Positions 2,475 to 40,170 of a stretch of DNA of 44,157 nucleotides are shown here, piece after piece. Within the stretch, counting starts at the first letter, position 1. Each line of letters starts with the position of its first letter. This stretch comes from a virus. A program made the translations under genes and the position numbers. The stretch is taken from positions 1 through 44,157 of IMG/VR virus record IMGVR_UViG_3300042889_000984, one strand, 5' to 3'. Below the pieces are notes generated by a model. The model ran no database searches. It was not told the origin of the DNA and saw only the letters and a program-made list of their open reading frames with translations.

Positions 2475-2813
2475 ATGAATAGTACAATTTTATATGGTAG
2501 TAATTTACCCGAATTAACAAACATACTAATGGGTATGGTAACAATGTCAGATAATACATTATCTCAATTTAATAGTAATATTAATGATTTATCTGATTCA
2601 GATAAATTTATTATAAATGAATTTACAAATTTAACAAGTTTTAATACTATGGTTAATATTAACAATTCTTCAATATATTTTGATTGTACTATGGTTACAC
2701 CAAATAATGTTTTAACTGAAATGAGCGATATTGATTATCTAACTTTAAATACAAATGATACAACAATTATTAATAATTTTATCACTTTAATTAGAAAATT
2801 AAGTAATATATAA
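2475..2813 (+). CDS. Small Asn/Thr-rich protein of unknown function
   Basis: 112 aa, not recognised. It starts 3 nt after the stop of the beta-helix fibre and so is probably cotranscribed and possibly translationally coupled with it. The sequence is rich in Asn, Thr, Ser and Leu with few charged residues, and reads like alternating helices (LPELTNILMGMVTMSDN, DSDKFIINEFTNLTSFN). There is no Cys-pair motif, signal peptide or membrane segment. Small genes just after large phage fibre genes sometimes encode assembly chaperones, and the 86-aa gene at 10414 stands in the same relation to another fibre. That is only a positional argument. Confidence 0.6.
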   Translation: MNSTILYGSNLPELTNILMGMVTMSDNTLSQFNSNINDLSDSDKFIINEFTNLTSFNTMVNINNSSIYFDCTMVTPNNVLTEMSDIDYLTLNTNDTTIINNFITLIRKLSNI

Positions 2814-2822
2814 AATAATAAG

Positions 2823-2837
2823 ATATTTATATAAAAA
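2823..2837 (+). promoter_or_regulatory. Putative late promoter motif
   Basis: ATATTTAT at 2823-2830, then an A-rich tract. It ends 16 nt before the ATG at 2847. The AAAAGGAAAAAAATG context includes AAGG, one of the few purine-rich start contexts in the window. Confidence 0.55.
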
Positions 2838-2846
2838 AGGAAAAAA

Positions 2847-22197: not shown

Positions 22198-22241
22198 TAT
22201 ATTTTTATCCTTTAATTTAAAAAATTTTTCAATATAATGTA

Positions 22242-22256
22242 ATATTTATTAGTAAG
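22242..22256 (+). promoter_or_regulatory. Putative late promoter motif with long leader
   Basis: ATATTTAT at 22242-22249, 102 nt before the ATG at 22352, far longer than the usual 12-16 nt. The leader between them is structured (see 22262-22326). Confidence 0.45.
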
Positions 22257-22261
22257 ATTAC

Positions 22262-22326
22262 TTTGGACAGTGAAGGAGTAATTTAGTATCTTGATGAATA
22301 ATCGAATATATACTTTATTGTCCAAA
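22262..22326 (+). other. Structured 5' leader of the giant collagen-like gene
   Basis: TTTGGACA (22262-22269) pairs with TGTCCAAA (22319-22326), and inside it AAGGAGTA can pair imperfectly with TACTTTAT. Together they make a long hairpin 25 nt before the start codon. A 22-aa frame (ATG 22294, stop 22360-22362) runs through it and overlaps the main start by 11 nt. The rest of 22198-22351 shows only AT-rich sequence. Confidence 0.4.
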
Positions 22327-22351
22327 AAAAATAATATTAAAAGTATATATT

Positions 22352-25300: not shown

Positions 25301-28300
25301 TTAGAAACTTCAAATATTAATGTCACAGGTTTAACTAATAACCCAACCCTAACTAGATTTATGGTTACAGATACTAATGGTACTGTATATTATAGAAGTG
25401 GTGGTTCTGATGGTACGTCTGGTACAAGTGGTAGCTCTGGAACTAGTGGAACATCAGGTTCATCAGCTACTAGTGGAACTGCTGGGACAACTGGTACTAG
25501 TGGTACATCAGGCTCATCCGCAACAAGTGGTACATCAGGCTCATCCGCAACAAGTGGTACATCAGGTTCATCAGCTACTAGTGGAACTAGTGGTAGTTCT
25601 GCCACATCTGGTACATCTGGAACTACGGGTACTACAGGAACGTCTGGTACCTCAGGTAGTTCAGCTACTAGTGGTACTAGCGGAACATCAGCAACATCAG
25701 GTACTAGTGGTACAACGGGAACAACTGGTACTTCTGGAACTACAGGTACTAGTGGTACTTCTGGTAGTAGTGCAACAAGTGGTACGTCAGGTAGTTCAGC
25801 TACAAGTGGTACATCAGGTAGTAGTGCAACTAGTGGTACATCGGGTAGTTCAGCTACTAGTGGAACTTCTGGAACTACAGGAACTAGTGGTAGTAGTGCA
25901 ACAAGTGGTACAAGTGGTAGTAGTGCAACAAGTGGTACGTCAGCAACAAGTGGTACTAGTGGTAGTTCAGCAACAAGTGGTACGTCAGGTACAACTGGAA
26001 CTTCTGGAACTAGAGGTACAAGTGGTACATCTGGTTCATCTGGTGCGAATGGTTCTAGTGGAACAACTGGTACTTCAGGTACAACTGGTACTTCAGGTAG
26101 TTCAGCAACTAGTGGAACCTCTGGTACATCAGGCTCTTCTGGTGCAAATGGTAGTAGTGGTACAACAGGAACTAGTGGGACTAGTGGTAGTTCGGCAACA
26201 AGTGGAACATCAGGTAGTTCAGCCACAAGTGGTACAACTGGAACTAGTGGTAGTAGTGGTATAAATGGAACATCAGGTACTACAGGTACCTCTGGAACAA
26301 GTGGTAGTTCAGCAACAAGCGGTACTAGTGGTAGTTCGGCAACTAGTGGTACAACGGGAACTAGTGGAACATCAGGTAGTTCAGCAACAAGTGGAACCTC
26401 TGGTTCATCTGGTGCAAATGGAAGTAGTGGAACTACAGGTACAAGTGGTACTACTGGAACTTCTGGGACTACAGGTACAAGTGGTAGTAGTGCAACAAGT
26501 GGTACAAGTGGTACAAGTGGTAGTAGTGCAACAAGTGGAACAAGTGGTAGTAGTGGTATAAATGGAAGTAGTGGTACAACGGGAACTTCTGGTACATCGG
26601 GTAGTTCAGCAACAAGTGGAACTACAGGTACAAGTGGTAGTAGTGCAACAAGTGGAACAAGTGGTAGTTCAGCTACAAGTGGTACAAGTGGTAGTAGTGG
26701 TGCTAACGGTTCTAGTGGTACAACAGGAACTAGTGGTACCTCAGGTAGTAGTGCAACAAGTGGTACAACGGGAACTAGTGGTACTTCAGGTAGTTCAGCA
26801 ACTAGTGGAACCTCTGGCTCTTCGGGTGTAAATGGTTCTAGTGGAACAACTGGTACAAGTGGAACAAGTGGTAGTTCGGCAACAAGTGGAACAACTGGTA
26901 CATCAGGTAGTTCTGGTACAACTGGTACAAGTGGTAGTTCAGCAACAAGTGGTACTAGTGGTAGTTCTGGGGTAAATGGTTCGTCTGGTACAACAGGTAC
27001 TAGTGGAACTAGTGGTAGTAGTGCAACAAGTGGAACATCGGGTAGTTCTGGTGCAAATGGTTCATCTGGTACAACTGGAACTTCTGGAACTAGAGGTACT
27101 AGTGGCTCATCTGGTGCAAATGGCAGCAGTGGAACAACTGGAACATCAGGTAGTTCAGCCACAAGTGGTACAACTGGAACTTCTGGAACTAGTGGTAGTA
27201 GTGCTACAAGTGGAACTACGGGTACTTCTGGAACTACAGGAACTAGTGGTACATCAGGTAGCTCAGCTACTAGTGGTACATCGGGTTCAAGTGGGGTAAA
27301 TGGAAGTAGTGGTACAACTGGTACTTCAGGTAGTAGCGCAACAAGTGGTACAAGTGGTAGTAGTGCAACAAGTGGAACTAGTGGTACAACTGGAACTAGT
27401 GGAACATCAGGTAGTTCGGCAACAAGTGGTTCATCGGGTACAACTGGAACATCAGGTTCATCTGGTGGAAATGGTAGTTCGGGTACTACTGGTACTTCTG
27501 GTACATCTGGTAGTTCGGCAACAAGTGGAACTAGTGGTAGTAGTGCGACTAGTGGAACATCAGGTACCACGGGTACTTCGGGAACCTCTGGTAGTTCAGC
27601 AACAAGTGGAACTAGTGGTAGTAGTGCTACAAGTGGAACATCAGGTACTACGGGTACTTCTGGTACATCGGGTACTACAGGTACAACTGGAACTAGTGGA
27701 ACAAGTGGAACGTCTGGTGTTGATGGGTTCTCAACTGGTTTAGTATATTATTTTAATGCTTCAATACCAGCTAGTGGTGTTGCTGGTTATTATGATATGA
27801 GTAAAAATATTGTAATAGGTGCTGGTACTAATAGAACTGCAACTGGTACTGGAATTCAACTAATTGAAGAATTTGTAACTGATATTAATCAACCAGGTTT
27901 AACAACAATACCAGGTGGTACTTGGAATTTTGAGCAATATGTTAAAATGAGTGCTAATGGTGGTACTCCTGAACTATATGTTGAGATATACGCTAGAACT
28001 ACAGGTGGTACTGAAACTTTAATTGCAACAAATAGTGCTGTTCCACTTGTTATTACCAATGGTGTTGTAACCACCCTTTATTTATTTTCTGTTGGGGTTA
28101 TAGCAACACTATTAAATATTAGTGATAGGATTGTTGTTAAATTTTATGCAACTAACTTAGTTGGTAAAACTATGACGTGTTATTTTGAGGATACTACAAT
28201 TGCTCAAGTAACAACATCTTTAACAGCAGCTGTTGCTGGTACATCAGGTACTTCTGGTACTAGTGGTAGTAGTGGTGTTAATGGTTCTTCTGGAACAAGT

Positions 28301-30967
28301 GGTTCATCAGGTACAAGTGGAACATCAGGTTCATCTGGAACTAGTTTTACTGGTTTAGGTCCTAGTAATTATGTTGCTCAAGGTAAATTAAATGCTAACC
28401 AATCAATACCAAGTGCTAGTGATACGGTTATTCAATTTATTGATGACTTTGACCCTCAAAACTGGTGGGATTCTGGAACATATAGATTTATACCAAACGT
28501 TCCTGGTTATTATAGTGTAACTATTGAGGTTTTATTTGAAGTTGGTACTGTAACGACTAATCAATATAATACTCAAATAAGAAAAAATAATAATCAAGTT
28601 GCTATTTTTCAAAATCAAATTACAACATCAACAGGTGTTAGTCAAGGAAATACTAGAATTATCTATTTAAATGGTTCAACTGACTATGTTGATTTTACAG
28701 TATATAATGGTGATACTGGTTCAGTAAATATATCAAAAGGTTCAGTTGATAGTTCCGCCACTTATTTTTCAGTGGCATTGTTAGCTTATGGTGGTACTTC
28801 AGGGACTAGTGGTTCAAGTGGGTCAGCTGGTACTACGGGAACGTCTGGTACTAGTGGTACATCGGGTAGTTCAGCTACAAGTGGTACATCAGGTAGTAGT
28901 GGTGCAAATGGGTCGTCAGGTACAACTGGTACAAGTGGTACAAGGGGAACTAGTGGTAGTTCTGGTGTAAATGGTTCATCAGGTACTACAGGAACATCAG
29001 GTACTACAGGAACATCTGGTACTTCGGGTAGTAGTGGGGCTAATGGTTCAAATGGAACATCTGGAACTAGTGGTAGTAGTGGTGCTAATGGTTCATCAGG
29101 TACAACAGGAACTAGTGGTTCATCTGGTAGTAGTGGTACAACGGGTACTAGTGGTAGTTCGGCAACAAGTGGAACATCTGGTACAACAGGTACGTCAGGT
29201 ACGTCTGGTAGTAGTGGTGCAAATGGTAGTAGTGGTACAACGGGTACTAGTGGAAGTTCTGGTGCAAATGGTTCATCAGGTACAACAGGAACATCAGGTT
29301 CATCTGGGGTTAATGGTAGCAGTGGTACAACTGGAACAAGTGGTAGTTCGGCTACTAGTGGTACTAGTGGAAGTAGTGGTGCTAATGGTAGTAGTGGTAC
29401 AACGGGTACTAGTGGTAGTTCGGCAACAAGTGGAACATCTGGTTCATCTGGTGCAAATGGTAGTAGTGGTACATCAGGGTCTTCTGGTGCAAATGGTAGT
29501 AGTGGTACTACGGGAACATCAGGTTCAAGTGGGGCTAATGGTTCAAGTGGAACATCTGGTTCATCTGGTGCAAATGGTTCATCAGGTACTTCTGGTTCAA
29601 GCGGAGCAAATGGTAGTAGTGGTACATCAGGGTCTTCTGGTGCAAATGGTTCATCTGGTACAAGTGGTTCTTCTGGTGCAAATGGTAGTAGTGGAACAAC
29701 TGGAACAAGTGGTAGTAGCGGAGTAAATGGCTCGTCTGGAACAAGTGGCTCTTCTGGTGCAAATGGTAGTTCTGGAACAACTGGGACATCAGGTTCGTCT
29801 GGTGCTAATGGTAGTAGTGGGACTACTGGTACTTCTGGTACAACTGGAACAAGTGGTAGTAGCGGTAGTAGCGGTGCTAATGGTTCAAGTGGAACTACGG
29901 GAACTAGTGGTACATCTGGCTCAATATTTGGTTTTGCAGCTTCTGGTGATATGGTTGCTGTGCAAACAAGGAGAACAACACCATATGCATTGACTAACAC
30001 ATTTTTTAATATTAAGTTAGATATTACAGATATTGAAAATAATTCAGCAATTATTAGTCATGATACTGTTACAAATGCTGACAGAATCTATGTTTATGAC
30101 ACTGGTTTATATAGTATCCATTATCATGGTGATGTTGGTCCTGGTACAGTAACTGACTTTGATTTTAGAATTTTAATAAATGATATCACTTTGGTTAATG
30201 GTGGTTCAATTAGTGGTAAAAACTCTAGTACGGATAGAGTAACAGCATCTGTGGATGCAGTAGTATCATTAACAAGTGGTGATTATGTAACACTTCAAGG
30301 TAAATTCCCTGTAAATACAGGTGGTTTAGTTGATAATTTAGTTTTTAGTGTTAGAAAATTAAAATCATTAATTGGGACATCTGGAACTAGTGGTACTTCT
30401 GGTACTAGTGGTGTTAATGGTACTTTCTTTGGTACTAGTGGTACATCAGGTTCAAGTGGAGCAAATGGTTCGTCTGGGACAAGTGGTGGTGTAACAATAA
30501 GTAATAATACTAATAATTATGTATTAACCGCAACGGGTGTTGCTGGTTCAATTAATGGTGAGGTAGGGTTACAATATAATGGGTCACTTTTAACTTTACT
30601 TGGTGATTTAGAACAATCTTCAGTTACCAATATTGTAACAACTACCAATGCGACAATAACTACAGTACAAACATTTACCCCTAATGCATCACAGTTATAT
30701 CAATTAGAAGCAAATGTTTTAGGACTTAAAAATACCGTTGATAAAGGTATAGTGATGAAAATAATAGGAATCTTTATTGTAAATGGTCTTGGTGTTATTA
30801 GTCAAATTAGTTCTCAAGTTATAACAAAAAATACATCATTTACAACTGCTAATGTAACTATGGATATATCTGGAGCATCTATATTAATAAGAGTAACGGG
30901 TGAAGCTGCAACTACTATTTATTGGGAATCCTCTATAATAAATAGGCTTGTTGGTGTGGCTGGATAA
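22352..30967 (+). CDS. Giant collagen-like fibre (2871 aa) with beta-helix head and C1q-like domains
   Basis: Residues about 50-330 and 345-650 are two related pectin-lyase-like units (FNSIKSAVDS with VVVGPGVFYENTI; FTSIKSAVDY with IEVGPGQFFENQI), the fold of pectinesterases, without visible catalytic residues. Residues about 945-1015 hold a phage fibre joint (SSDDHLQYLLVDGARPMSG). Four proline-free Gly-X-Y tracts (about 1018-1790, 1963-1998, 2147-2524, 2675-2711) alternate with globular domains. Domains near 1999-2146 (GTYRFIPNVPGYYSVTIEVL) and 2525-2674 (VYDTGLYSIHYHG) look C1q/TNF-like; that at 1791-1960 is another beta-sandwich. The last 160 residues are a tip. Collagen plus C1q recalls the spore protein BclA. 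It is probably a very long trimeric fibre and a candidate substrate of the phage glycosyltransferases. A structured leader precedes it. Confidence 0.8.
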   Translation: MSNEFIARKGVIIKSINSGTTENEVLAIDGDGLVKSRNINNLINVKNLVTVGLSGSTVDFNSIKSAVDSITGASSTNTYVVVVGPGVFYENTITMKSYVDVIGESATNTIIQAINPNVSLIIGADQSMINNVQVQGCTGTGVAAIYYSSPTTPQLNAIFYVENVRFGANYTHAKVVGTSGGNCIMQCSNVKYGGYPFTLGFYCTNNGSGIGRMQLRNVTSTNGGVATTSGLVFAKADQPSCAFIVNGCLLTKSTGAAAGVGFWIENGASLRLTGVNFQRWATGIYAPQVGSAPSIDAISLNFENCTKDVDIIHSGAIGKVQGTDNFLKTRININSPLYEVGQDARKITVAKKGGDFTSIKSAVDYLIASGSTSSSSRYVIEVGPGQFFENQIDLTNTPYVSIVGSNIQTTQILPVTSSQHIIKLGINNEISFLSLSGSGAGYAGIYVYDIGDYGQAHKISFYDCDINVLVESNSQDTNFYGEYLDFNGDYSYGVKVIANNGFLALANMENYYNFPSGPNQTIANYVEGSGATLSVFVGDAVSNGVSGSTNYLLQDYASLNTTTTTSDGWDYGVRVLNIGGPSSFDIDGISILNSMTYDLSVEHLDTFGTYGGSSSHEKINNLSDSVYWAFLDIEDGEFDITRKISITFQDGTHTDLSTLMFQGGTMGLMEGGDITVISGFTLNTDTGFGYLAKTLSPSIIVRIDWLDSQITLLPNVNEYIYINENGILSSSGSRPSSINNIILGRVVTDSTGVVFIDLSPLNADHTSNRYGNLFREALGPIYAFGSIVSEGTSGFTLDVTAGEYYYSTNAYMTSGDLPISFLQYRRDGLGGWIASGTTIVNNTDFDNNGVLSGLTNGYFTKHTLYVVGSGLYEKYFLVLGQNQYATLVQAENALLPTPPTFFSDSVVQISNIYIQQGLTGITQFEDIRPVIGFKAGGVNASSLHANLLGLSSDDHLQYLLVDGARPMSGNLNMGNNDIVNIDLLETSNINVTGLTNNPTLTRFMVTDTNGTVYYRSGGSDGTSGTSGSSGTSGTSGSSATSGTAGTTGTSGTSGSSATSGTSGSSATSGTSGSSATSGTSGSSATSGTSGTTGTTGTSGTSGSSATSGTSGTSATSGTSGTTGTTGTSGTTGTSGTSGSSATSGTSGSSATSGTSGSSATSGTSGSSATSGTSGTTGTSGSSATSGTSGSSATSGTSATSGTSGSSATSGTSGTTGTSGTRGTSGTSGSSGANGSSGTTGTSGTTGTSGSSATSGTSGTSGSSGANGSSGTTGTSGTSGSSATSGTSGSSATSGTTGTSGSSGINGTSGTTGTSGTSGSSATSGTSGSSATSGTTGTSGTSGSSATSGTSGSSGANGSSGTTGTSGTTGTSGTTGTSGSSATSGTSGTSGSSATSGTSGSSGINGSSGTTGTSGTSGSSATSGTTGTSGSSATSGTSGSSATSGTSGSSGANGSSGTTGTSGTSGSSATSGTTGTSGTSGSSATSGTSGSSGVNGSSGTTGTSGTSGSSATSGTTGTSGSSGTTGTSGSSATSGTSGSSGVNGSSGTTGTSGTSGSSATSGTSGSSGANGSSGTTGTSGTRGTSGSSGANGSSGTTGTSGSSATSGTTGTSGTSGSSATSGTTGTSGTTGTSGTSGSSATSGTSGSSGVNGSSGTTGTSGSSATSGTSGSSATSGTSGTTGTSGTSGSSATSGSSGTTGTSGSSGGNGSSGTTGTSGTSGSSATSGTSGSSATSGTSGTTGTSGTSGSSATSGTSGSSATSGTSGTTGTSGTSGTTGTTGTSGTSGTSGVDGFSTGLVYYFNASIPASGVAGYYDMSKNIVIGAGTNRTATGTGIQLIEEFVTDINQPGLTTIPGGTWNFEQYVKMSANGGTPELYVEIYARTTGGTETLIATNSAVPLVITNGVVTTLYLFSVGVIATLLNISDRIVVKFYATNLVGKTMTCYFEDTTIAQVTTSLTAAVAGTSGTSGTSGSSGVNGSSGTSGSSGTSGTSGSSGTSFTGLGPSNYVAQGKLNANQSIPSASDTVIQFIDDFDPQNWWDSGTYRFIPNVPGYYSVTIEVLFEVGTVTTNQYNTQIRKNNNQVAIFQNQITTSTGVSQGNTRIIYLNGSTDYVDFTVYNGDTGSVNISKGSVDSSATYFSVALLAYGGTSGTSGSSGSAGTTGTSGTSGTSGSSATSGTSGSSGANGSSGTTGTSGTRGTSGSSGVNGSSGTTGTSGTTGTSGTSGSSGANGSNGTSGTSGSSGANGSSGTTGTSGSSGSSGTTGTSGSSATSGTSGTTGTSGTSGSSGANGSSGTTGTSGSSGANGSSGTTGTSGSSGVNGSSGTTGTSGSSATSGTSGSSGANGSSGTTGTSGSSATSGTSGSSGANGSSGTSGSSGANGSSGTTGTSGSSGANGSSGTSGSSGANGSSGTSGSSGANGSSGTSGSSGANGSSGTSGSSGANGSSGTTGTSGSSGVNGSSGTSGSSGANGSSGTTGTSGSSGANGSSGTTGTSGTTGTSGSSGSSGANGSSGTTGTSGTSGSIFGFAASGDMVAVQTRRTTPYALTNTFFNIKLDITDIENNSAIISHDTVTNADRIYVYDTGLYSIHYHGDVGPGTVTDFDFRILINDITLVNGGSISGKNSSTDRVTASVDAVVSLTSGDYVTLQGKFPVNTGGLVDNLVFSVRKLKSLIGTSGTSGTSGTSGVNGTFFGTSGTSGSSGANGSSGTSGGVTISNNTNNYVLTATGVAGSINGEVGLQYNGSLLTLLGDLEQSSVTNIVTTTNATITTVQTFTPNASQLYQLEANVLGLKNTVDKGIVMKIIGIFIVNGLGVISQISSQVITKNTSFTTANVTMDISGASILIRVTGEAATTIYWESSIINRLVGVAG
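25405..27726 (+). repeat. Main collagen-like coding tract (about 2.3 kb)
   Basis: About 770 codons of Gly-X-Y with X/Y almost only Thr, Ser, Ala or Asn. Higher-order modules recur, such as GTSGSSATSGTSG and SSGANGSSGTTGTSG. Some modules are also nearly identical in DNA (for example AGTGGTAGTAGTGCAACA), while others differ at most third positions. Confidence 0.85.
28795..29922 (+). repeat. Second collagen-like coding tract (about 1.1 kb)
   Basis: Gly-X-Y codons as in the main tract, but enriched in GAN and GVN triplets (SSGANGSSGTSG module) with fewer ATS interruptions. Shorter tracts of the same kind lie at about 28240-28345 and 30376-30486. Confidence 0.85.
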
Positions 30968-30988
30968 TGATAAATTAATTTAAATAAT

Positions 30989-31879
30989 ATGGCAGAATTT
31001 TATATAGAAAATGGTACGGTATTTATGCCGACAACTGTAACAATACCTACACCAGACCCTGGTGGTAACTTTTTATTTGTAAAAAATAGAGGTGGTAGAC
31101 TTATGTTTGGGCAAATGGGTCAAAGTGGTGTTGATTACACTTTTCAACCAGCATTATATGCAAATAAAATTGGTTATTGGAATCCTCCAGGGGGTGTTAC
31201 AACCGTTCCAGGTATATTTGGTATGGGTCCACTTACCGCAACTGGCACAGCAACTGCTAAGAGTGTTGCCACAACTAACCTTTTTACTAGAACAAGAAGG
31301 GTTCAGACTTTATCAGCGGGTACTGCTGGTTCACTAACTGGATATAGGGGTAATTCATTAGTATTATCAATGGGTTCTGGTACAATTTTAGGTGGGGGTG
31401 GATTTTATTATGTAATTAGGTTTGGTATATCTGATGCGGCTGCGGTAGCTGGTGCTAGGATGTTTGTTGGGTTAAGAGCTAGTGGTGGTGCCCCAACTAA
31501 TGTTGAACCATCAACGTTAATTCAATCTATTGGTGTTGGTCACGGTGCCGCTAATACTAATTTATTTATGTACTATGGTGGTACCGCCGCTCAAACACCA
31601 ATAGATTTGGGGATATCTTTTCCAACAAATACTAGAAGTGTTGATTTATATGAATTAACTTTATTTTGTAGTCCAACTTCAACTAATAGTGTTAGTTATA
31701 GAGTTGAGAGATTAAATACTGGTGATATTGCTAGTGGTGTATTAACAACGGTTACTGCTGGTGTTGGATTACCATTAAATACTTCATTATTAATGAATAA
31801 CGATTATAGAACTAATAATGCAACCGCTAGTGCAGTTGGTATTGATTATGTATCTGTATATTTTGAAACTGATTTTTAA
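30989..31879 (+). CDS. Fibre-tip / receptor-binding protein
   Basis: 296 aa. After a short N-terminal joint (MAEFYIENGTVFMPTTVT, PGGNFLFVKNRGGRLMFG), residues about 100-296 form a beta-rich domain (TRTRRVQTLSAGTAGSLTG, GGGGFYYVIRFGISDA, GARMFVGLRASGG, IQSIGVGHGAANTNLFMYYGG). I recognise this kind of domain at the end of many unrelated phage tail fibres, where it probably contacts the host surface. The gene starts 21 nt after the giant fibre and the pair may form one fibre assembly, but there is no direct proof. There is no enzyme motif, signal peptide or membrane segment. Confidence 0.65.
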   Translation: MAEFYIENGTVFMPTTVTIPTPDPGGNFLFVKNRGGRLMFGQMGQSGVDYTFQPALYANKIGYWNPPGGVTTVPGIFGMGPLTATGTATAKSVATTNLFTRTRRVQTLSAGTAGSLTGYRGNSLVLSMGSGTILGGGGFYYVIRFGISDAAAVAGARMFVGLRASGGAPTNVEPSTLIQSIGVGHGAANTNLFMYYGGTAAQTPIDLGISFPTNTRSVDLYELTLFCSPTSTNSVSYRVERLNTGDIASGVLTTVTAGVGLPLNTSLLMNNDYRTNNATASAVGIDYVSVYFETDF

Positions 31880-31882
31880 GTT

Positions 31883-32632
31883 ATGAAATTATTTGACATA
31901 AAATTAAATAGATATGACATATTTGAGGATGGGTTATACATTGAGTATGTACCATTAAATGATGAGATTAGACATTATTTAATGAATGGTAATACATATC
32001 AATTAATAAACAATTCAATTGATGAAACAATCGCATATTATAAACCTATTGTTAGACTTGAGCTTTATAATTTATTACCTGAAGATATAAAACCACAATA
32101 TATTAACGTTCAATATAAGTTAACCGATTCAATAGAAAGTCCATCTGATATTAATTACGATATATTAGGGTTTCATAAAAAAAGAACTATTTTATTTGGT
32201 GAATTAAAAAAGGTTGAATATTTTAAAAACTACGATGGTACTAATTATTCAGATTTAATATTAGAAGAATTTAGAGAATATACTAGAGATATAGATGGGT
32301 TAGTTCAAGTTAGGAATTTGACTATAAAGTGGTTATTGAATGATGATTCTATTGGTGCGATAAAGAACACTACAAAATACTATTCAGCTCAAGAGGCAAT
32401 TCAAGAAGGTATTGATAGGAGGGGTAATATAATATCCGATACGAAGTCTTATACATTATTTCAAATTGGTCAGACACAGTCCTTCGATTTATTAAGTGGT
32501 GTAAAAACAGAAATTGATTTGTTCATAGATGGTTATACTGACCCATTAAGAACCGCTATAACTAATTCTACAAAACCATATTTAACACAAACCATTAAGG
32601 ATGGTATTATTGATAGATTAAGATTAGAATAA
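31883..32632 (+). CDS. Unknown protein following fibre genes
   Basis: 249 aa, not recognised. It starts 3 nt after the fibre-tip gene, so coupled expression is likely. The sequence is mixed alpha/beta and hydrophilic (LYIEYVPLNDEIRHYLMN, YNLLPEDIKPQYINVQYK, FGELKKVEYFKNYDG, SAQEAIQEGIDRRGN). It lacks repeats, Cys motifs, a signal peptide and membrane segments. Gene order suggests a virion or fibre-assembly role. Confidence 0.6.
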   Translation: MKLFDIKLNRYDIFEDGLYIEYVPLNDEIRHYLMNGNTYQLINNSIDETIAYYKPIVRLELYNLLPEDIKPQYINVQYKLTDSIESPSDINYDILGFHKKRTILFGELKKVEYFKNYDGTNYSDLILEEFREYTRDIDGLVQVRNLTIKWLLNDDSIGAIKNTTKYYSAQEAIQEGIDRRGNIISDTKSYTLFQIGQTQSFDLLSGVKTEIDLFIDGYTDPLRTAITNSTKPYLTQTIKDGIIDRLRLE

Positions 32633-32643
32633 AAAAATTAATT

Positions 32644-33132
32644 ATGAAAGAATTTTTTCAAGGAATTTGGGCTCTTATATGGGCTACAATAGTGAGTTGT
32701 TTAATGATAACAATAGGGACGGTTTATTCATTAGGCTATTCTATTTGGTTGACAATAACATTAAAAAAATGGTATGCATTTTTTATATTCTGGTGGAGAC
32801 TAATAGATGGTATATTCTTTGCTTTAGGTCATATACTGTATGAATTAGCATATTCTTTAGATTTAATATGGAATGTGAATGGTGAAATACTTGAAGATTT
32901 TATGACAGCTGAAGAAAATACAACATTTACTGATAGAGATATTTCTGTATCAGCAAGTGTTGGTAAATTACAAAAAGAAGGTAAGTTGAATAAATTTGGA
33001 CTTTGGTTTAGTAGATTATTAAACTTTGCATTTGGTCAAAAACAACATGCTTTAGATGCGTGGGAATACACCCAAGCTAAAAAAGCACTTAGAGAAAAAT
33101 ATTTTAAAAAGAAAACTGATAAAAAGTTTTAA
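32644..33132 (+). CDS. Two-helix membrane protein of unknown function
   Basis: 162 aa. Two strongly hydrophobic, Trp-rich segments at about residues 8-33 (IWALIWATIVSCLMITIG) and 44-68 (AFFIFWWRLIDGIFFALG) predict a hairpin in the host inner membrane. The remaining 90 residues are hydrophilic and end very basic (KKALREKYFKKKTDKKF). No holin or known lysis family is recognisable, though a role in the cell envelope is possible. It is the last gene of the plus-strand run and meets the minus-strand DUF6165-like gene tail to tail with no base between them. Confidence 0.65.
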   Translation: MKEFFQGIWALIWATIVSCLMITIGTVYSLGYSIWLTITLKKWYAFFIFWWRLIDGIFFALGHILYELAYSLDLIWNVNGEILEDFMTAEENTTFTDRDISVSASVGKLQKEGKLNKFGLWFSRLLNFAFGQKQHALDAWEYTQAKKALREKYFKKKTDKKF

Positions 33133-33507
33133 TTAACTATATGGTTCATATGATTTTTCTTCGGAGAAGTTTGAACCATACTTTATATTAATAACTTTTT
33201 TAAGTTCAAACCTAATATCATTGGTTATGTAAACTAATCTAGCCAATTCAATAAACGGTTCATCAAATTCTTTATTTTTTTCCTTGATTCTAATGTCATC
33301 TTCAATATCCCATAATTGTTCATTTATCATTAACAATCGTTCATAATCATACATGTCAATATTTAAATCAGTAAATACAATTTTATGTAGGTAATTATAC
33401 TCATTTTCAATTTTAAATAATTTATCACTATTTATTATTCTTCTTTTTTTAATATCTAAGATTGATAATTTATCAACTATCTCTCCTATTGAAGCTTCTA
33501 TTTCCAT
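33133..33507 (-). CDS. DUF6165-like protein in glycan-modification operon
   Basis: 124 aa. The start MEIEASIGEIVDKLSILDIK, then KRRIINSDKL followed by a helical middle, matches the pattern I remember for DUF6165 (VSxGExxDKxxILxIKxxRI). That is a family of unknown function whose genes often stand beside bacterial glycosyltransferases for surface sugars. It is mostly alpha-helical and soluble. It is the last gene of the minus-strand operon, 3 nt after the FkbM methyltransferase. Its place in the operon suggests a helper in glycan transfer. The biochemical role is unknown. Confidence 0.65.
   Translation of the reverse strand: MEIEASIGEIVDKLSILDIKKRRIINSDKLFKIENEYNYLHKIVFTDLNIDMYDYERLLMINEQLWDIEDDIRIKEKNKEFDEPFIELARLVYITNDIRFELKKVINIKYGSNFSEEKSYEPYS
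33140..33180. repeat. Nested inverted repeat at a convergent gene junction
   Basis: TATGGTTCA (33140-33148) and TGAACCATA (33172-33180) enclose a smaller CTTC-GGA-GAAG hairpin (33159-33169). It lies in the last codons of the DUF6165-like gene, just beyond the membrane-protein gene. There is no adjoining T tract, so terminator function is unproven. Confidence 0.35.
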
Positions 33508-33510
33508 ATT

Positions 33511-34185
33511 TTATCTATTATCTATATATATTATCACTTCAGTGTAATATTCCATGAAGTGTTCGTTAAACAAATCCCATTTAATATTAACACCATCTAT
33601 TGAGTACACCTCGTAATTTGTGAACTTAACTAAATAATTATCTCTAAAGTTTATAAATTTAGTTTTTAGTTCTGCTGTTAACAAATGCCATTCACCAACA
33701 ATCTTTTTAATATTGTTTTGTATATATTCAAGATTTTCATCATTAAATATTGAATATTCACCACCTTCACAATCAGTCTTTAAAAAATCAATTTTATCCA
33801 AATTATATAATTTAATTAATTTTTTAAATGTAATACCTTCCATATGCGTTTCATCACCATATACTTGGTGGTTCTCAACGTATGTATTATAATCAGACAC
33901 ACCTTTAAGTATTGGTGTTACTGGATACCCAACAGTATTTTTAACTAAAGTTTTAAACTCTAATTCACTTGGTTCAATAACATAAACATGTTTTGGTTTC
34001 TTATCTAGTATAGAATATGTAAATGACCCAATACTACCACCAACATCTAAAACTATATCATTTTCCTCAACTTCAAAAAACCTTTCGTACATTTTAGTTT
34101 CAAAAGTTTCATATATTATTAAATCTTTGTGATGTTCACCTTCTGGTGTATTCATCCATCCCCAATCAAAGTTATCTAAATTCAT
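33511..34185 (-). CDS. FkbM-type SAM-dependent methyltransferase
   Basis: 224 aa. The SAM-binding motif I is VLDVGGSIGSF (residues 45-55), the acidic ribose-binding end of strand 2 is VIEPSE (69-74), and the FkbM signature IDFLKTDCEGGEYSIF follows near residue 132. The family O-methylates sugars or polyketides and is common in surface-glycan clusters. The start overlaps the stop of the upstream heptosyltransferase by 4 nt (ATGA), so the two are translationally coupled. Its likely substrate is therefore a sugar added by the enzymes of the same operon, perhaps on phage fibres. Substrate and target are inferred. A second, fused FkbM-like domain lies in the 1042-aa protein. Confidence 0.82.
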   Translation of the reverse strand: MNLDNFDWGWMNTPEGEHHKDLIIYETFETKMYERFFEVEENDIVLDVGGSIGSFTYSILDKKPKHVYVIEPSELEFKTLVKNTVGYPVTPILKGVSDYNTYVENHQVYGDETHMEGITFKKLIKLYNLDKIDFLKTDCEGGEYSIFNDENLEYIQNNIKKIVGEWHLLTAELKTKFINFRDNYLVKFTNYEVYSIDGVNIKWDLFNEHFMEYYTEVIIYIDNR

Positions 34186-35330
34186 TTTAATAATTTTTTA
34201 ATTTCAGTAATAACCATGTCACCAGTTATTCTTTTATGACATTCAAATTGTTTATATGTATTTTTATGTTCAGGACACCAATTCCAGTCACCCTTATCAA
34301 ATTTATAATTTGGATTATTCCAACAACCATTACATACGGATTTATTAACAATTCTAGTGCAGTTACTTGTGAACTCATGGTCTTCTACTGTAAAATTAGA
34401 AATCATAACAACATGTTTTCCAATCGCCCAAGATAACCATGATAATCCAGAGCTAAGTCCAATTAAGAACTCACTATGGTGAATAACATTCATTGTGTTT
34501 TCGATTGAACAATCTTTTAATTTTTCAACACCTTTATATTTTGACCCTTCTTTGGATACATCGATAACTTTGTAACCATTTTCAATTAAGAAATCAATTA
34601 CTTCTTGCCAACCAGTTTTATTATTCCAATACTTAAGACCTGATGTTGAATTTGGTGCAATTGTCACATATTTTGTATCATATGGATTTTCCTTTGGTTT
34701 AAAATCAATTTCTGGTTTTATTTCAGTAAATTCTAAACCTAAAATATTTGTTGCAGTTTGTTGCAGTGGAATTATGTTTGGTAATACTGGTTCGGCATCC
34801 TCGTCATAAAACCAACCTAATGAATACATAGCGAATAAATTATGAACAGTTACTCCAGGTTCAACAAATTCAATATTAGGGTATGATTCTTTTAATAGTT
34901 TATTCCAGAAAGTTGATAGTATAACTTTACAATTATGTTTTTTTCTAAATTCTTCAACATAAGGTATCCAAGCAATAGTATCACCTAATGATGATGACTC
35001 CATTGTTATAAACACACGTTTATCTGATAAATCTAAAGTATAATCACAAACTAATTCACCTTTACGATAAGCTTTAATATTCCATTCTGTAAAATATTTC
35101 CTATTTAACTTGGTCCACATATTACTATTTATGGTTGCTGAATGAACTAATACCATATTGTTATCATAAAACTCAACTAAAAACTCATCATCAACATTCC
35201 CAATAACTTCAAAAAAAGGATTATTTACAAAATGATAATTAAATGACATCTGTTCTTTAGGTTTCATCATATTAATTTTAGTGTTTTTTATTTCTTTCAA
35301 ATATTTTAATCTAGTTTCTTCTGAATTCAT
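34182..35330 (-). CDS. Autotransporter-type O-heptosyltransferase homologue (TibC/AAH family) with Cys cluster
   Basis: 382 aa. The N-terminal part carries a beta-sandwich (FYDNNMVLVHSATINSNMW), the central core SLGDTIAWIPYVEEFRKKHN, then YPNIEFVEPGVTVHNLFA, and the GT-B half FLIGLSSGLSWLSWAIGKHV. The C-terminus holds four cysteines (C333, C336, C352, C364; CNGCWNNP...WNWCPEH...FECHK), the arrangement by which TibC-type enzymes bind a ferric ion. TibC forms a dodecamer that heptosylates Ser in repetitive autotransporter adhesins. Here the natural acceptors would be the phage's Ser/Thr-rich repeat fibres, one of which starts just beyond this operon. It overlaps the genes before and after by 4 nt each, the mark of a tightly coupled operon. 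The donor sugar is not shown by the sequence. Confidence 0.82.
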   Translation of the reverse strand: MNSEETRLKYLKEIKNTKINMMKPKEQMSFNYHFVNNPFFEVIGNVDDEFLVEFYDNNMVLVHSATINSNMWTKLNRKYFTEWNIKAYRKGELVCDYTLDLSDKRVFITMESSSLGDTIAWIPYVEEFRKKHNCKVILSTFWNKLLKESYPNIEFVEPGVTVHNLFAMYSLGWFYDEDAEPVLPNIIPLQQTATNILGLEFTEIKPEIDFKPKENPYDTKYVTIAPNSTSGLKYWNNKTGWQEVIDFLIENGYKVIDVSKEGSKYKGVEKLKDCSIENTMNVIHHSEFLIGLSSGLSWLSWAIGKHVVMISNFTVEDHEFTSNCTRIVNKSVCNGCWNNPNYKFDKGDWNWCPEHKNTYKQFECHKRITGDMVITEIKKLLK

Positions 35331-38300
35331 ATCTCTTTTAATTTTTCAATCATTTTTTCCATTATATCAACATCTTTTTCACCATGAAAAAATAATAAAT
35401 TTTCTTTATTAGCTGGAACTCTAACCCATTTTGATAACTCTTCTTCATTATCATCAAGACCGACTTTATCATAAATTAAATCAATACTATCTAAACTAGC
35501 ATTAACATAAATGTATGGTAACCCATTTAATATGTTGTATTTCCATAACAAAACATTTAATATTGTTTCTTCATTATATGGTGCGTAATGTTCATTATTT
35601 TTTAATATCTTTGGATTTATACACATCCAATACCACTCATCCATGAAATCAATACAATCTTTACTAGCAATAAAATAACCAGTTTGTCTATATCTTTCAC
35701 GTACCTTTTGATTAACATTATATAGTTCACAAGCTGGATGTTCCAATGTGGTTGTTAAATCTTCTTTAGTTTCAGCTCCACCTCTACCATTTGCAAATAA
35801 ATAATCATAAACACCTTGAACAAAGAATGGGTAACTAAAATCAGTATATAAGTTAAAGATATTATCAACATTTGGTGTTGCAACTGAATCACTATCAACA
35901 TATACCGCAATATCTAAATAATTAGTTAATACATCTTTCATGATTAGTGGTCTTTGTATTAGTAATTTATAGATGTTTGAATTATTTCGATTTATATAAA
36001 AATTAGATTCTGAACTTTCATACATATTAGCATCGTTTTCTAAATTACAAACCCACTTAATTGTTGTTACATTTTCAACATTAACCTTTAAATCAGAATC
36101 TAACATATATACGTATATTGGTAGATTACTAAATGCTCTAATTGATTTTGCTGCTGCACTAACGATATTAAAGTATTTTACATTACTGTATAATACATAA
36201 CCATGCTTTACTAAACTATCATTAATTAATTTTTCATTATCTGGATATCCTTTATATAAACTATGGTGATGTACGTTAGTATTCATATACGTTAAACCAA
36301 TTTCTTCTGACACTTGGTATTCTCTTACTGGTGAATCAGTCATAAGTGGTCTGTAATCGTTTAATAATGATAATATCGCTTTACTGTATACAATTGGCCC
36401 TGTAGTTCTTAATACAGCCTCTTTACCCGCTCCATCGGTATAGTTTCTAATGTTATATTCAACTAGTTCTATTGTTTTCTTTAGAAATGGGTGTTCGGGT
36501 TTACATATGATATACCAATTTTGAAATTCACCAAGTGAATAATCTAATTCATCAGACCAATCTCTACCTGGCCAATGTGATAAAAGATATTCATCAGTAT
36601 ATAATAATGTATCTTCTAATGGTACTGTTGTTGTACTTTTAATGTCTAAATAAACCCCACCAACTTTATACATTAATAGATATCTAAAATAATCAGCTTT
36701 AGCTGGGCCATAACTATCATTAATGGTTAAATACAGTTTTAATGTTTCTTTTGAGTAGTTTTCCTTTATAAAATTTACACAGTCTTCATCATTGTAGAAT
36801 CTATATTCAAAGGTTGGGTTCATTTTTTTAAGTTGGTCAACATTGTTTACTAATTCAACTGGTAAATCATTTGTTTTATATGTTTGATGTATAACTCTAG
36901 GAATCTTTTGTTTCCTTAAAATTATATCACTCATTAAATATTCAACATCATATCCTACAAATCGTTTCAATAATTTATTAATTTCTTCTTTATTTGATAC
37001 TTCACTATGACATTCAAATTTAATTTTATTTGCCAATAATTTTGGGTTTTTTTCACATTCATTTAAATAGTCATTTAAAATAACATGGTCATAACCTTCT
37101 GTATCAACTTTTAAATAATCAATACTTTTTACATTATGTTTTTCAATTAAGTTGGACCAAGTTATAGTTGGTACTTTTTGTATTGTGACTAATTTATCAT
37201 ATAATTCTTTACCTATTTCTTTAATAGTAAATGGGTGTGGATTATTTACGCTATTACTACCTCTAACCCACCATGGTAGGTTATGTGTGTCAATATGTTT
37301 ATCTTTTATGTAATAAATATCAATAGAACCTTCTTCATCTGACATAGCAGCTTGAATCTTTTTAACGTTTCGTTTGTTCGGTAATTTATCAAGATAATAC
37401 TTAATTGGTTCAATACTTATACCTTTTGTTAAATTATTCGATTCTTCTATTAGTGTATCAAAATCTGATGTACCAATTTCAATAAAATCATAATGACCAT
37501 CATCAACCACATTTAATTGCAATAAATCAATCATTTTATTTGTATCGGTATCAATATCACCAGTTAAAAAAGAAATGCATTCTTCGTTATTGTATGAATC
37601 ACAATATGTTTCTAAATTAAACATTAAAATTTTAGAATCATACATTAGTGCTTCTTTAACAACTAATGGGTTTAATTCTAGTTTTGATGTAAATAAAAAT
37701 AAATCACTAGCTATTATGAAGTCATCAGTATTATCTTTTTCACCCCATACTATACAGTTGCTTGGTATATTTTCCATTAGTGGTTTCCAATAATCCATAA
37801 AATTACCAGCTTGATTACCTACAAAATGAAAAGTCACACCTCTACCTTCAAATTGTCTAGCTAATTCAAAAGCATAACCTTGATTTTTCCCTGGTGTAAA
37901 TAAACCAATATTTACAACATGTTTTGAGCTTGGGTCAAGTTTTAATTTTTCAATTGCAAGTTGTTGTTGTTTGATTTTTTTATCAACTGGATATTCAATA
38001 ACAACTGATTCAATACCTAAACTTTCATACATTTTTTTTGAGTATTCAGATACGAATATAAATTTATCTGGTAAAAACCTTTTTAATGGTTTAGAATCGT
38101 ATGAACTATGAGTTGTTTCAAATATTTTATATTGTCTATCTGAATTATATATTTTAATCAAGATATCTTTATCGATAAATGTTTCAGATAATTCTTCTAT
38201 AAAAATTATTTCAGGGTCAAAATCTTCAATAACTTTAATCAATTTATGTTTATCATCACCTACTGAAATAAATTTATCACCTAATAAGTTAATTATCTTA

Positions 38301-38455
38301 TTTCTTTGAATTACAAAATCTGGTGATAAAAAATTATATTCAACACATACAACGTTATAATGTGACATCAATAACTCAATTTTATTTAATGTGAATTGAG
38401 GTGCACCACCTGTAGATAGATGTGATGCTATTATTAATAAATTATTTTTAACCAT
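35327..38455 (-). CDS. Four-domain glycosyltransferase/methyltransferase
   Basis: 1042 aa. Domain 1 (1-315) is a GT-B glycosyltransferase like family GT4 (STGGAPQF near the N-terminus, GLFTPGKNQGYAFELAR, and ELNPLVVKEAL for the E-x7-E loop). Domain 2 (about 320-510) is an FkbM-like methyltransferase (YDFIEIGTSDFD, IDYLKVDTEGYDHVI, D451). Domain 3 (about 517-745) is a GT32/Och1-like enzyme (IPRVIHQTYK, AKADYFRYLLMYKVGGVYLDI, D604). Domain 4 (751-1042) is a GT8-like GT-A enzyme with the DxD motif VYVDSDSV (D854, D856). The glycine-rich loop of domain 2 is degenerate (IGTSD), so methylation there needs testing. The protein could build a short, methylated oligosaccharide in one assembly line. It is the first gene of the operon, overlapping the next by 4 nt. 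Confidence 0.85.
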   Translation of the reverse strand: MVKNNLLIIASHLSTGGAPQFTLNKIELLMSHYNVVCVEYNFLSPDFVIQRNKIINLLGDKFISVGDDKHKLIKVIEDFDPEIIFIEELSETFIDKDILIKIYNSDRQYKIFETTHSSYDSKPLKRFLPDKFIFVSEYSKKMYESLGIESVVIEYPVDKKIKQQQLAIEKLKLDPSSKHVVNIGLFTPGKNQGYAFELARQFEGRGVTFHFVGNQAGNFMDYWKPLMENIPSNCIVWGEKDNTDDFIIASDLFLFTSKLELNPLVVKEALMYDSKILMFNLETYCDSYNNEECISFLTGDIDTDTNKMIDLLQLNVVDDGHYDFIEIGTSDFDTLIEESNNLTKGISIEPIKYYLDKLPNKRNVKKIQAAMSDEEGSIDIYYIKDKHIDTHNLPWWVRGSNSVNNPHPFTIKEIGKELYDKLVTIQKVPTITWSNLIEKHNVKSIDYLKVDTEGYDHVILNDYLNECEKNPKLLANKIKFECHSEVSNKEEINKLLKRFVGYDVEYLMSDIILRKQKIPRVIHQTYKTNDLPVELVNNVDQLKKMNPTFEYRFYNDEDCVNFIKENYSKETLKLYLTINDSYGPAKADYFRYLLMYKVGGVYLDIKSTTTVPLEDTLLYTDEYLLSHWPGRDWSDELDYSLGEFQNWYIICKPEHPFLKKTIELVEYNIRNYTDGAGKEAVLRTTGPIVYSKAILSLLNDYRPLMTDSPVREYQVSEEIGLTYMNTNVHHHSLYKGYPDNEKLINDSLVKHGYVLYSNVKYFNIVSAAAKSIRAFSNLPIYVYMLDSDLKVNVENVTTIKWVCNLENDANMYESSESNFYINRNNSNIYKLLIQRPLIMKDVLTNYLDIAVYVDSDSVATPNVDNIFNLYTDFSYPFFVQGVYDYLFANGRGGAETKEDLTTTLEHPACELYNVNQKVRERYRQTGYFIASKDCIDFMDEWYWMCINPKILKNNEHYAPYNEETILNVLLWKYNILNGLPYIYVNASLDSIDLIYDKVGLDDNEEELSKWVRVPANKENLLFFHGEKDVDIMEKMIEKLKEI

Positions 38456-38478
38456 AAATTAAATATAGTATTTTTTTT

Positions 38479-38493
38479 ATTAAAAATAAATGT
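38479..38493 (-). promoter_or_regulatory. Degenerate late-type motif for the glycan-modification operon
   Basis: On the minus strand ACATTTAT (38486-38493), one mismatch from ATATTTAT, is followed by TTTTAATAAAA-type sequence. It ends 30 nt before the start at 38455, a gap like that of the other heptosyltransferase gene at 10716 (29 nt). It may be a weaker late promoter. Confidence 0.3.
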
Positions 38494-38523
38494 AAAATAA
38501 CTTATTATTTGTAAGTATCAGTG

Positions 38524-38538
38524 ATATTTATATATAAA
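38524..38538 (+). promoter_or_regulatory. Putative late promoter motif
   Basis: ATATTTAT at 38524-38531, followed by ATATAAATT, ending 16 nt before the ATG at 38548. Because the motif lies inside the longest open frame (GTG at 38521), it also argues for the later start. Confidence 0.55.
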
Positions 38539-38547
38539 TTTAAATAT

Positions 38548-40119
38548 ATGTCTATTTCTTACATTATCGATAATAATGATGAATCATTATCTAATCAAAT
38601 TATTAAGGGTTCTTTATCACAAGGTGATAATACATCTGCTAGTGGTGCTTATTCACATGCTGAAGGTGAATCAACAAAGGCTATTGGTACTAATTCACAT
38701 GCTGAAGGTTATTTTTCAACAGCTAGTGGTGATGATTCACATGCTGAGGGTTCTGAAACAATAGCTAGTGGTGCTACATCACACGTTGAAGGTTATGGTA
38801 GTCTAGCTGGTGGTGATAGTTCACATGCTGAAGGTAATTTTACAATAGCTAGTGGTATTTATTCACATAGTGAAGGTGGTCAAACATCTGCAATTAGCGA
38901 TGCGTCACACGCAGAAGGTTATTTAACAACTGCTAGTGGTTTATATTCACACGCTGAAGGTACTCTAACAATAGCTAGTGGTCAAGCTTCACATGCTGAG
39001 GGTAGTTATGCAACTGCTAGTGGTAATTATTCACATGCTGAAGGTCAACAAACAATAGCAAGTGGTGATTATTCACATGTTGAGGGTTCATTTACAATAG
39101 CTAGTGGTATTTTTTCACACGCTGAAGGTGGTTTAACAACCGCTAGTGGTTATCTATCACATTCTGAGGGTTCTGGTACAACAGCTAGTGGTACAGCGTC
39201 ACACGCTGAAGGTGATAGAACGATAGCTAGTGGTGATACGTCACATGCTGAGGGTAGTAAAACAAGAGCTAGTGGTACTTTTTCACATGCTGAAGGTCAA
39301 AATACAACAGCTAGTGGTAATTATGGTTCACATGCTGAAGGTCAAAATACAATAGCTAGTGGTGATAATTCACACGCTGAGGGTAGTTATACAAAAGCAT
39401 TTGGTCAAGCTTCACACGCTGAAGGATATAGTACAACTGCTAGTGGCATTCAGGCGCATTCTGAAGGTTATTTAACAACAGCTAGTGGTTATTATTCACA
39501 TGCTGAAGGGATTTCAGCAAAGTCTTTTGGTGCTTATTCACATGCTGAAGGTAATGCTACAATAGCTAGTGGTGATACGTCACACGCTGAAGGGTATCAA
39601 ACAACTGCTAGTGGTTATTATTCGCATTCTCAAGGTTATATTACATTAGCTAGTGGTCAAAATTCACACGCTGAAGGTCAGCAAACCTCAGCAACAACAT
39701 ATAATACACACGCTGAAGGTATTGGTACACTTGCTAGTGGTACGGGTTCGCACGCTGAAGGTTATGGTACCAAAGCAACTGGAATTAATTCACATTCACA
39801 AAATTTATATACAACAGCATTTGGGTTTCATTCACATGCGGGTGGTTCAGGTTCAACCGCAACTGGTATCGCATCATTCGTTCATTCATCTAATTCAACG
39901 GTAAGTGGTGATAGAAGTGCTATTATTGGTGGTCAAGGTATAACTGGTTCAGCTGCTGATACTGTTTATGTTCCAGATTTTGTAATTAAAAAAACAGCAA
40001 CAGTTCCAACAAGTTCAGCAGATACTGTTGGTGAAAATGGTTCTATAACATGGGATAATACACATTTTTATTGGAAAGCAAATGGTCAATGGTTAAGAGT
40101 TTTAGGTTCAACGTTCTAA
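38548..40119 (+). CDS. Second SHAEG-repeat fibre (YadA-head-like)
   Basis: 523 aa from the ATG at 38548. The longer frame from GTG 38521 runs over the promoter motif and is rejected. After a short head (MSISYIIDNNDESLSN) come 29 units of 14 residues, SHAEGxxTTASGxY, then the same cap as the first SHAEG fibre (SFVHSSNSTVSGDRSAIIGG against SFIHSSSSTVSGDRSVVIGG). A short tail follows (ITWDNTHFYWKANGQWLRVLG), of the kind that closes many phage fibre or capsid-decoration proteins. It lacks the long N-terminal module and C-terminal tip of the first fibre, so it could be a shorter fibre, a tip or a decoration. It is divergent from the glycan operon. A terminator follows. Confidence 0.78.
   Translation: MSISYIIDNNDESLSNQIIKGSLSQGDNTSASGAYSHAEGESTKAIGTNSHAEGYFSTASGDDSHAEGSETIASGATSHVEGYGSLAGGDSSHAEGNFTIASGIYSHSEGGQTSAISDASHAEGYLTTASGLYSHAEGTLTIASGQASHAEGSYATASGNYSHAEGQQTIASGDYSHVEGSFTIASGIFSHAEGGLTTASGYLSHSEGSGTTASGTASHAEGDRTIASGDTSHAEGSKTRASGTFSHAEGQNTTASGNYGSHAEGQNTIASGDNSHAEGSYTKAFGQASHAEGYSTTASGIQAHSEGYLTTASGYYSHAEGISAKSFGAYSHAEGNATIASGDTSHAEGYQTTASGYYSHSQGYITLASGQNSHAEGQQTSATTYNTHAEGIGTLASGTGSHAEGYGTKATGINSHSQNLYTTAFGFHSHAGGSGSTATGIASFVHSSNSTVSGDRSAIIGGQGITGSAADTVYVPDFVIKKTATVPTSSADTVGENGSITWDNTHFYWKANGQWLRVLGSTF
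38629..39910 (+). repeat. 42-bp coding repeat array (SHAEG units), second copy
   Basis: 29 units of 42 nt (one of 45 nt) around TCACATGCTGAAGGT, mirrored in protein by SHAEG. It is shorter than the array at 7777-9729 and has a different order of variable residues, so it is not a simple recent copy. Confidence 0.85.
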
Positions 40120-40145
40120 TAAGCTAAACATTTCATAAAAATAAT

Positions 40146-40170
40146 AAAGGGGTCTTAGGGCTCCTTTTTT
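40146..40170 (+). terminator. Intrinsic terminator after second SHAEG fibre
   Basis: AAAGGGGTC (40146-40154), loop TTAG, GGCTCCTTT (40159-40167) with two G-T pairs, then T to 40170. It also precedes the stop codon of the minus-strand 49-aa gene, so it may serve both strands. Confidence 0.75.

Follow-up and report, generated by a model that had tools for sequence, protein, structure and literature searches.

A four-gene operon in the DNA of a tailed phage appears to be a cassette that glycosylates the phage's own Ser/Thr-rich, collagen-like fibres, a reading to which we give a probability of about 0.74. The DNA spans the whole of IMG/VR virus record IMGVR_UViG_3300042889_000984, 44,157 bases long, and codes for a tail sheath and a B-family DNA polymerase; this whole stretch is called the window below, and positions refer to it. 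An initial annotation had described four minus-strand genes that overlap by 4 nucleotides or lie 3 nucleotides apart, and the open reading frames (ORFs) and their spacing are as it stated: from gene 1 to gene 4 there are two 4-nucleotide overlaps, both ATGA, and then a 3-nucleotide gap. The operon's position, flanked by the collagen-like fibres on one side and a SHAEG fibre on the other, was also given correctly; on the collagen-like side, three small plus-strand genes intervene. A second contig, L006 (IMGVR_UViG_3300006484_001465), has the identical gene set and order. The relevant features are as follows.

35327-38455, minus strand: operon gene 1, a multi-domain glycosyltransferase/FkbM protein of 1042 amino acids.
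34182-35330, minus strand: operon gene 2 (GT9a), a TibC-type protein O-heptosyltransferase of family GT9, 382 amino acids.
33511-34185, minus strand: operon gene 3, an FkbM-family methyltransferase of 224 amino acids.
33133-33507, minus strand: operon gene 4, a DUF6165 protein of 124 amino acids.
20773-22197, plus strand: collagen-like fibre 1, 474 amino acids with Gly-Ser/Thr-Ser/Thr repeats, a candidate acceptor.
22352-30967, plus strand: collagen-like fibre 2, 2871 amino acids, a candidate acceptor.
30989-33132, plus strand: three small genes that separate fibre 2 from the operon.
38521-40119, plus strand: SHAEG (YadA-head repeat) fibre adjoining the operon, Pfam YadA_head 63.9 bits.
10716-11765, plus strand: GT9b, a second TibC-like gene of 349 amino acids, downstream of a SHAEG fibre at 6930-10403 and outside the operon.

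The product of gene 2 had been labelled a TibC-type heptosyltransferase, and this label is right. It scores 292.9 bits against the NCBIfam family TIGR04414 (cut-off 200) compared with 23.4 bits against lipopolysaccharide (LPS) heptosyltransferase I, reaches 29.4 bits against Pfam GT9 (cut-off 22), and matches two sequences in the PDB, both of them TibC (4rap, E = 3e-56). TibC is described as a protein-modifying enzyme that acts on Ser, not Thr, of a beta-helix passenger; its iron is bound by four cysteines, and each cysteine mutant was unable to catalyse heptosylation of TibA (PMC4358343). The iron-finger cysteines C333, C336, C352 and C364 of GT9a align with TibC cysteines 339, 342, 358 and 370, and D117 stands opposite the active-site Asp110 of TibC in the 4rap alignment, numbered by hand. 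All five residues are invariant in 23 of 23 aligned sequences, with the window's own sequence among the 23.

Genes for this type of enzyme are strongly paired with Ser/Thr-rich repeats. In viral contigs, a search for close relatives of TibC gave 209 stretches and a profile search at least 593; the best 80 of the 209 were kept, and the best 80 of the at least 593 provided 43 further loci. Repeats were called with a home-made detector that examines segments of 60 amino acids for at least 40% Ser + Thr together with at least 20% Gly or at least 10% Pro. The contigs are fragments, and the counts depend on the flanks that were fetched. A Ser/Thr-rich repeat stretch is present in the flanks of 63 of the first 80 loci (48 of Gly type, 31 of Thr-Pro type, some with both), at 0.4-8.7 kilobases (kb) from the enzyme with a median of 1.8 kb, and in 28 of the 43 further loci. 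Grouping the TibC sequences at 80% identity gives 45 clusters, 36 of them near a repeat; among the 33 clusters that have a locus of at least 15 kb, the number is 31. According to the initial annotation, finding the operon regularly in related phages that have no repeat fibre would speak against its proposal, and the cluster counts point the other way. The orientation is nearly constant, 163 of 166 repeat stretches being on the strand opposite the enzyme (108/110 plus 55/56). Among the 17 negative loci of the first 80, the Gly-type pattern is found elsewhere in 5 records and the Thr-Pro pattern in 0/17. Two repeat backbones occur, GTSGTSGSS-like and TPTNTPTET-like, and their common trait is Ser/Thr richness and little else.

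Control loci without GT9a, a class that also excludes loci with GT9b, rarely have such repeats nearby: 1/79 for the tail sheath, 6/48 for the B-family DNA polymerase (polB) and 0/13 for DUF6165, compared with 91/123 for TibC. With at least 150 repeat residues required, the counts for the same loci are 0, 2 and 0, compared with 78/123. The sheath control is weak when taken alone because in the window some 10 kb separate the sheath from the fibres, and 30 related records were therefore searched whole. These were hand-picked from 132 sheath and polB loci, were at least 30 kb long, and excluded duplicates and near-copies (L181, L182, L186, L200, L210, L213). TIGR04414 exceeds its cut-off only in G002, which is also the only one of the 30 with the Gly-type pattern; G001 and G003 carry GT9b, under the TIGR04414 threshold. 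FkbM matches are present in four of the related records that lack TibC and GT4 matches in eight (one over cut-off), none of them with a Gly-type repeat. The reverse search used 39 records of at least 40 kb among 80 loci listed for the GTS (Gly-Thr-Ser) pattern alone, and among the loci listed TIGR04414 was over cut-off in 18 of the 39. Set against 0/29, this gives a Fisher p of 9e-6, a value that treats loci as independent, which holds only partly.

The same pairing is seen in bacteria. A scan of bacterial genomes found ten relatives, eight of them with a Ser/Thr-rich stretch in the flank. A small GTS- or GSS-repeat protein is encoded about 1 kb or less from the enzyme in Methylobacter luteus, Methylobacter sp. 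BlB1, Methylomicrobium sp. RS1, and metagenome-assembled genomes (MAGs) from Acidiferrobacterales and Gammaproteobacteria; judged by eye, the repeat proteins of both Methylobacter have N-termini like those of exported proteins. Two bacterial loci (L284 and L289) have a phage-derived look, again by eye, and L292 and L293 are without such a repeat. Within the Methylococcales, TIGR04414 gave matches (E 1e-30 or better) in 12 of 201 genomes: five at 654-663 bits (four genomes, the classical group), seven at 304-327 bits, and one partial. A class-level search, in which 2 of 369 genomes matched, added one at 298 bits. This makes eight lower-scoring loci, of which the Methylobacter and Methylomicrobium loci of the bacterial scan account for three. 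A GXX (collagen-like) repeat is nearby in 7 of these 8 loci compared with 0 of 5 in the classical, high-scoring group, three of whose loci adjoin AIDA-like repeats by eye. In a tree of 69 rows (quick mode, with support from the Shimodaira-Hasegawa-like approximate likelihood ratio test only), a fully supported long branch parts the classical five from all other rows.

Annotated phages provide a few further examples. Four of 50,697 phage records match GT9a, namely two 735-kb records of one length and with equal match coordinates, one 636-kb record, and the cyanophage Mel-JY01 of Microcystis, whose TibC-like domain scores 320.9 bits. A collagen-like ORF lies near the enzyme in Mel-JY01 and in the 735-kb phage. 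In the Mel-JY01 record (PP395634.1; L002 2-3052, L440), a 1016-codon Gly-Ser/Thr frame runs open from the record start and a 771-codon frame runs open to the end, and the two are probably one fibre gene split by the record start. Its annotation calls only the last part of the repeat (hypothetical protein, 2519-3052) and places two minus-strand coding sequences inside the repeat. TibC-type matches were also found in 216 plasmid records; among the matches listed, those with an annotation are labelled autotransporter heptosyltransferases. The recurrence of the pairing in many phage contigs and several bacteria suggests that these phages sugar-coat their own fibres.

Both candidate acceptors in the window match Pfam Collagen (PF01391, cut-off 27.2), fibre 1 with 92.2 bits and fibre 2 with 404.9 bits. 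They have the Gly-X-Y pattern of this family in a run interrupted by ATS steps, and a triple helix is not implied. Ser + Thr make up 42.8% of fibre 1, fibre 2 has 582 Ser and 480 Thr, and together the fibres hold 685 Ser and 580 Thr. In closely related phages the fibres and the operon have been lost together, in one event.

20909-38464: segment of 17,556 bases missing in L101, L102 and G001 (L234), comprising most of fibre 1, fibre 2, the three small genes and the operon.

In these contigs window base 20908 is joined to base 38465, as seen by blastn and in the junction sequence, and the joint deletion is counted once because all three have the same junction. L234 is 98.1% identical to the window over 3,354 bases to the left of the junction and 91.8% over 5,438 bases to the right, and at the junction a remnant ORF of 62 amino acids keeps roughly 40 codons from the start of fibre 1. 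L107 (84% and 86%) has a different junction, from 20832 to 40169.

The other proteins of the operon are consistent with the building of a larger, methylated glycan. Gene 1 had been read as a four-domain glycosyltransferase; there are four domains, but three are glycosyltransferases and one is an FkbM methyltransferase. In Pfam, FkbM scores 45.6 bits (cut-off 22.7) and Gly_transf_sug (GT32, with DXD) 37.7 bits (cut-off 23), and a GT4-like domain reaches 22.6 bits, under its cut-off of 26.4. The C-terminal 297 residues (746-1042) have no Pfam match and are predicted to adopt a GT-A-like fold: the AlphaFold2 model has a confidence (pLDDT) of 91.1, and its best Foldseek match is alpha-1,3-galactosyltransferase (1k4v, E = 7.4e-8), with LARGE1 and UGGT also found, at TM-scores of about 0.5. 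The assignments of genes 3 and 4 to FkbM and DUF6165 are borne out by 34.2 bits for PF05050 (cut-off 22.7) and 44.5 bits for TIGR01444 (cut-off 37.7), and by 34.9 bits for DUF6165 (cut-off 27), respectively. A DUF6165 gene is present in 49 of 123 TibC loci, counted from the locus listing. AlphaFold2 predicts a four-helix bundle for the gene 4 product (pLDDT 91.3), for which a fold search of the PDB gave no significant match. The DUF6165 profile matched one PDB entry, a C-type lectin chain (E = 0.0011 over 54 positions, with no stretch passing alone), and this match is regarded as spurious. As control queries, the GT32 domain and a neighbouring protein of 249 amino acids were of no use, each recovering nothing beyond the contig of a nearly identical phage.

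The gene content around TibC differs between contigs. In L059 (11747-13036), TibC and FkbM genes are followed by sulfotransferase and APS-kinase-like (adenosine 5'-phosphosulfate) genes, as if its glycan were sulfated, and a DegT aminotransferase is among the scanned proteins of L063; it is therefore suggested that the glycans vary between phages. No heptose-synthesis gene was named among ten scanned proteins of the relatives.

Taken as a fibre-glycosylation cassette, the operon would work in the infected cell. GT9a would add the first sugar, which homology suggests to be a heptose taken from the ADP-heptose of the host, to hydroxyls of Ser and perhaps Thr in the Gly-Ser/Thr-Ser/Thr repeats of the two fibres. 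The glycosyltransferase domains of the 1042-amino-acid protein could then lengthen the glycan, the two FkbM domains, one in that protein and one in gene 3, could methylate it, and the DUF6165 protein may assist in some way. The finished glycan might protect the fibres or tune their behaviour; the initial annotation named masking from host defences and adjusted binding as possible benefits.

That the phage glycosylates its own fibres was the core of the initial annotation, and with TibC clusters near repeats so consistently it stands as the best-supported explanation. Several observations weigh against it. The support for fibre glycosylation is gene neighbourhood alone, and the joint deletion, being a single event, takes out neighbours whether they are linked or not. 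Published TibC modifies Ser, not Thr, on a beta-helix passenger, according to PMC4358343, and the repeats here are collagen-like or Thr-Pro and Thr-rich; because of this preference, Thr-rich repeats would need another specificity. The pairing also has exceptions: 2 of the 33 clusters with enough flank and one of the eight lower-scoring bacterial loci are without repeats, the 636-kb phage LR756504.1 (L004) has TibC (218.5 bits) with neither repeat pattern in the whole record, and control record G010, alone among the 30 in having Thr-Pro repeats, has them without TibC. Among the loci listed in the reverse search, TibC is not over cut-off in 21 of the 39 records selected by GTS, which disfavours a strict rule, though these records are fragmentary.

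Other explanations place the acceptor elsewhere or remove it altogether. The operon may remodel a host surface glycan, such as LPS or capsule, to block superinfection, and lie near the fibres since such genes gather in the host-recognition region. Surface glycans are also among the targets of the GT4, GT32 and FkbM families, which counts in favour of this idea. The authors of a study on pelagimyophages read glycosyltransferases of a host-recognition cluster in this way (PMC7029224). We nevertheless consider it unlikely, since the GT9 enzyme is of the protein-modifying TibC type and not an LPS heptosyltransferase, the pairing with repeats is specific to TibC loci (no repeats at the DUF6165 loci without TibC, and no Gly-type repeat in the related records with FkbM or GT4 matches but no TibC), and the bacterial units couple the enzyme with a GTS-repeat protein. 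A role in modifying phage DNA against restriction, a common one for phage glycosyltransferases (PMC12619734), has a negligible chance of being correct here: no pyrimidine hydroxymethylase or similar enzyme was recognised among 17 scanned proteins, a subset of the ORFs in a window that is itself a fragment, and TibC belongs to a protein-modifying family (PMC4358343). There is little to recommend the view that operon and repeat fibres merely share a hot spot of gene exchange with no action on each other. Fibre regions are variable, and the joint deletion in L101, L102 and G001 would arise likewise; against this stand the near-constant opposite-strand layout, the enrichment found in the reverse direction from GTS-selected records, and bacterial pairs that lie outside phage fibre regions.

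The SHAEG fibre, a YadA-head beta-roll, adjoins the operon and is nearer to the strand-loop-strand substrates of TibC, and GT9b has a SHAEG fibre nearby in the window, L181, L182 and L186 (in L183 the flank does not extend far enough to judge). The presence of a TibC-like gene by each SHAEG fibre prompted the idea that these fibres are the general acceptor, which is not supported. SHAEG repeats occur in only 1 of 80 GT9a loci, that one being a contig of nearly the same phage, and sheath and polB loci that lack GT9a often have them, so the adjacent SHAEG fibre is a very improbable acceptor for the operon. A SHAEG fibre remains a candidate acceptor for GT9b, which scores 181 bits against TIGR04414 (cut-off 200), has no iron-finger cysteines at its end, and groups in the tree with a gene from a Bacteroidia MAG.

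Among known systems, the closest to the proposed fibre glycosylation is the TibC/AAH family (TIGR04414). GT9a passes the family cut-off, has the catalytic Asp and the four iron-finger cysteines, and has a repetitive candidate acceptor encoded nearby (PMC4358343). The acceptors or neighbours of TibC/AAH are strand-loop-strand autotransporters, whereas those of GT9a are GXX or Thr-Pro repeat proteins; GT9a also falls outside the classical clade and sits in an operon with additional glycosyltransferases and methyltransferases. Because of these neighbours and the separate clade of the classical five, it is not filed here as an autotransporter heptosyltransferase. Heptose transfer from ADP-heptose and a dodecameric assembly are further traits described for the family. 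BclA proteins are collagen-like. In Clostridium difficile spores, the glycosyltransferase SgtA modifies BclA3, a BclA-type glycoprotein, on a spore surface and not a virion (PMC7157674). Mycobacteriophages carry glycans on their own virion proteins, reported on the capsid and on tail tube C-termini (Freeman et al. 2023, cited in PMC12619734). Both systems are likened here by description. The pelagimyophage cluster likewise has glycan genes amid fibre genes, but these are read as modifying the host O-chain, and GT8 is the commonest family named (PMC7029224). Searches of the open-licence PubMed Central literature, judged by titles and the starts of abstracts, showed no paper on a phage TibC-type enzyme or on a heptosyltransferase of collagen-like proteins.

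When glycosyltransferase genes occur among phage fibre genes, the products are often interpreted as anti-LPS tools or DNA modifiers. Self-glycosylation of giant Ser/Thr-rich fibres offers a specific, testable alternative with a comparative pattern across many phage contigs, and on this view the TibC family would have a second class of acceptor. On balance we lean, by a little, towards a broader proposal, in which the distinct TibC-like group would be a general O-glycosylation machine for collagen- and mucin-like Ser/Thr repeats. Its minimal form in bacteria would be the enzyme with one small GTS-repeat protein; in hundreds of phage contigs, many with larger operons, it would place methylated oligosaccharides, which may be sulfated in some relatives, on fibres whose length can exceed 3,000 residues, giving a phage-made mucin-like coat. 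The cultured Microcystis phage Mel-JY01 and the two-gene unit of Methylobacter luteus could serve as test systems.

Some minor features of the window may be added. One copy of TATAAATA, a T4-type late-promoter motif, lies at 38525-38532 on the minus strand, that of the operon, 70 bases upstream of it; the whole window has 12 matches with 14.0 expected, no more than chance, and nothing is claimed from the motif. A protein of 1156 amino acids (2847-6317, plus strand) has many Asn/Gly-rich repeats of the NNTIGNxF type, spaced roughly 9 residues apart; it matches no Pfam family and is perhaps a beta-helix fibre. The fibre proteins at 366-2471 and 6930-10403 (plus strand) have in common a repeat of 30-odd residues, TGGTYSNGTATFxNNTGGTFNxxGFYTGSTEIF, and differ in the C-terminal parts downstream, as if the repeat were an exchanged shaft module.

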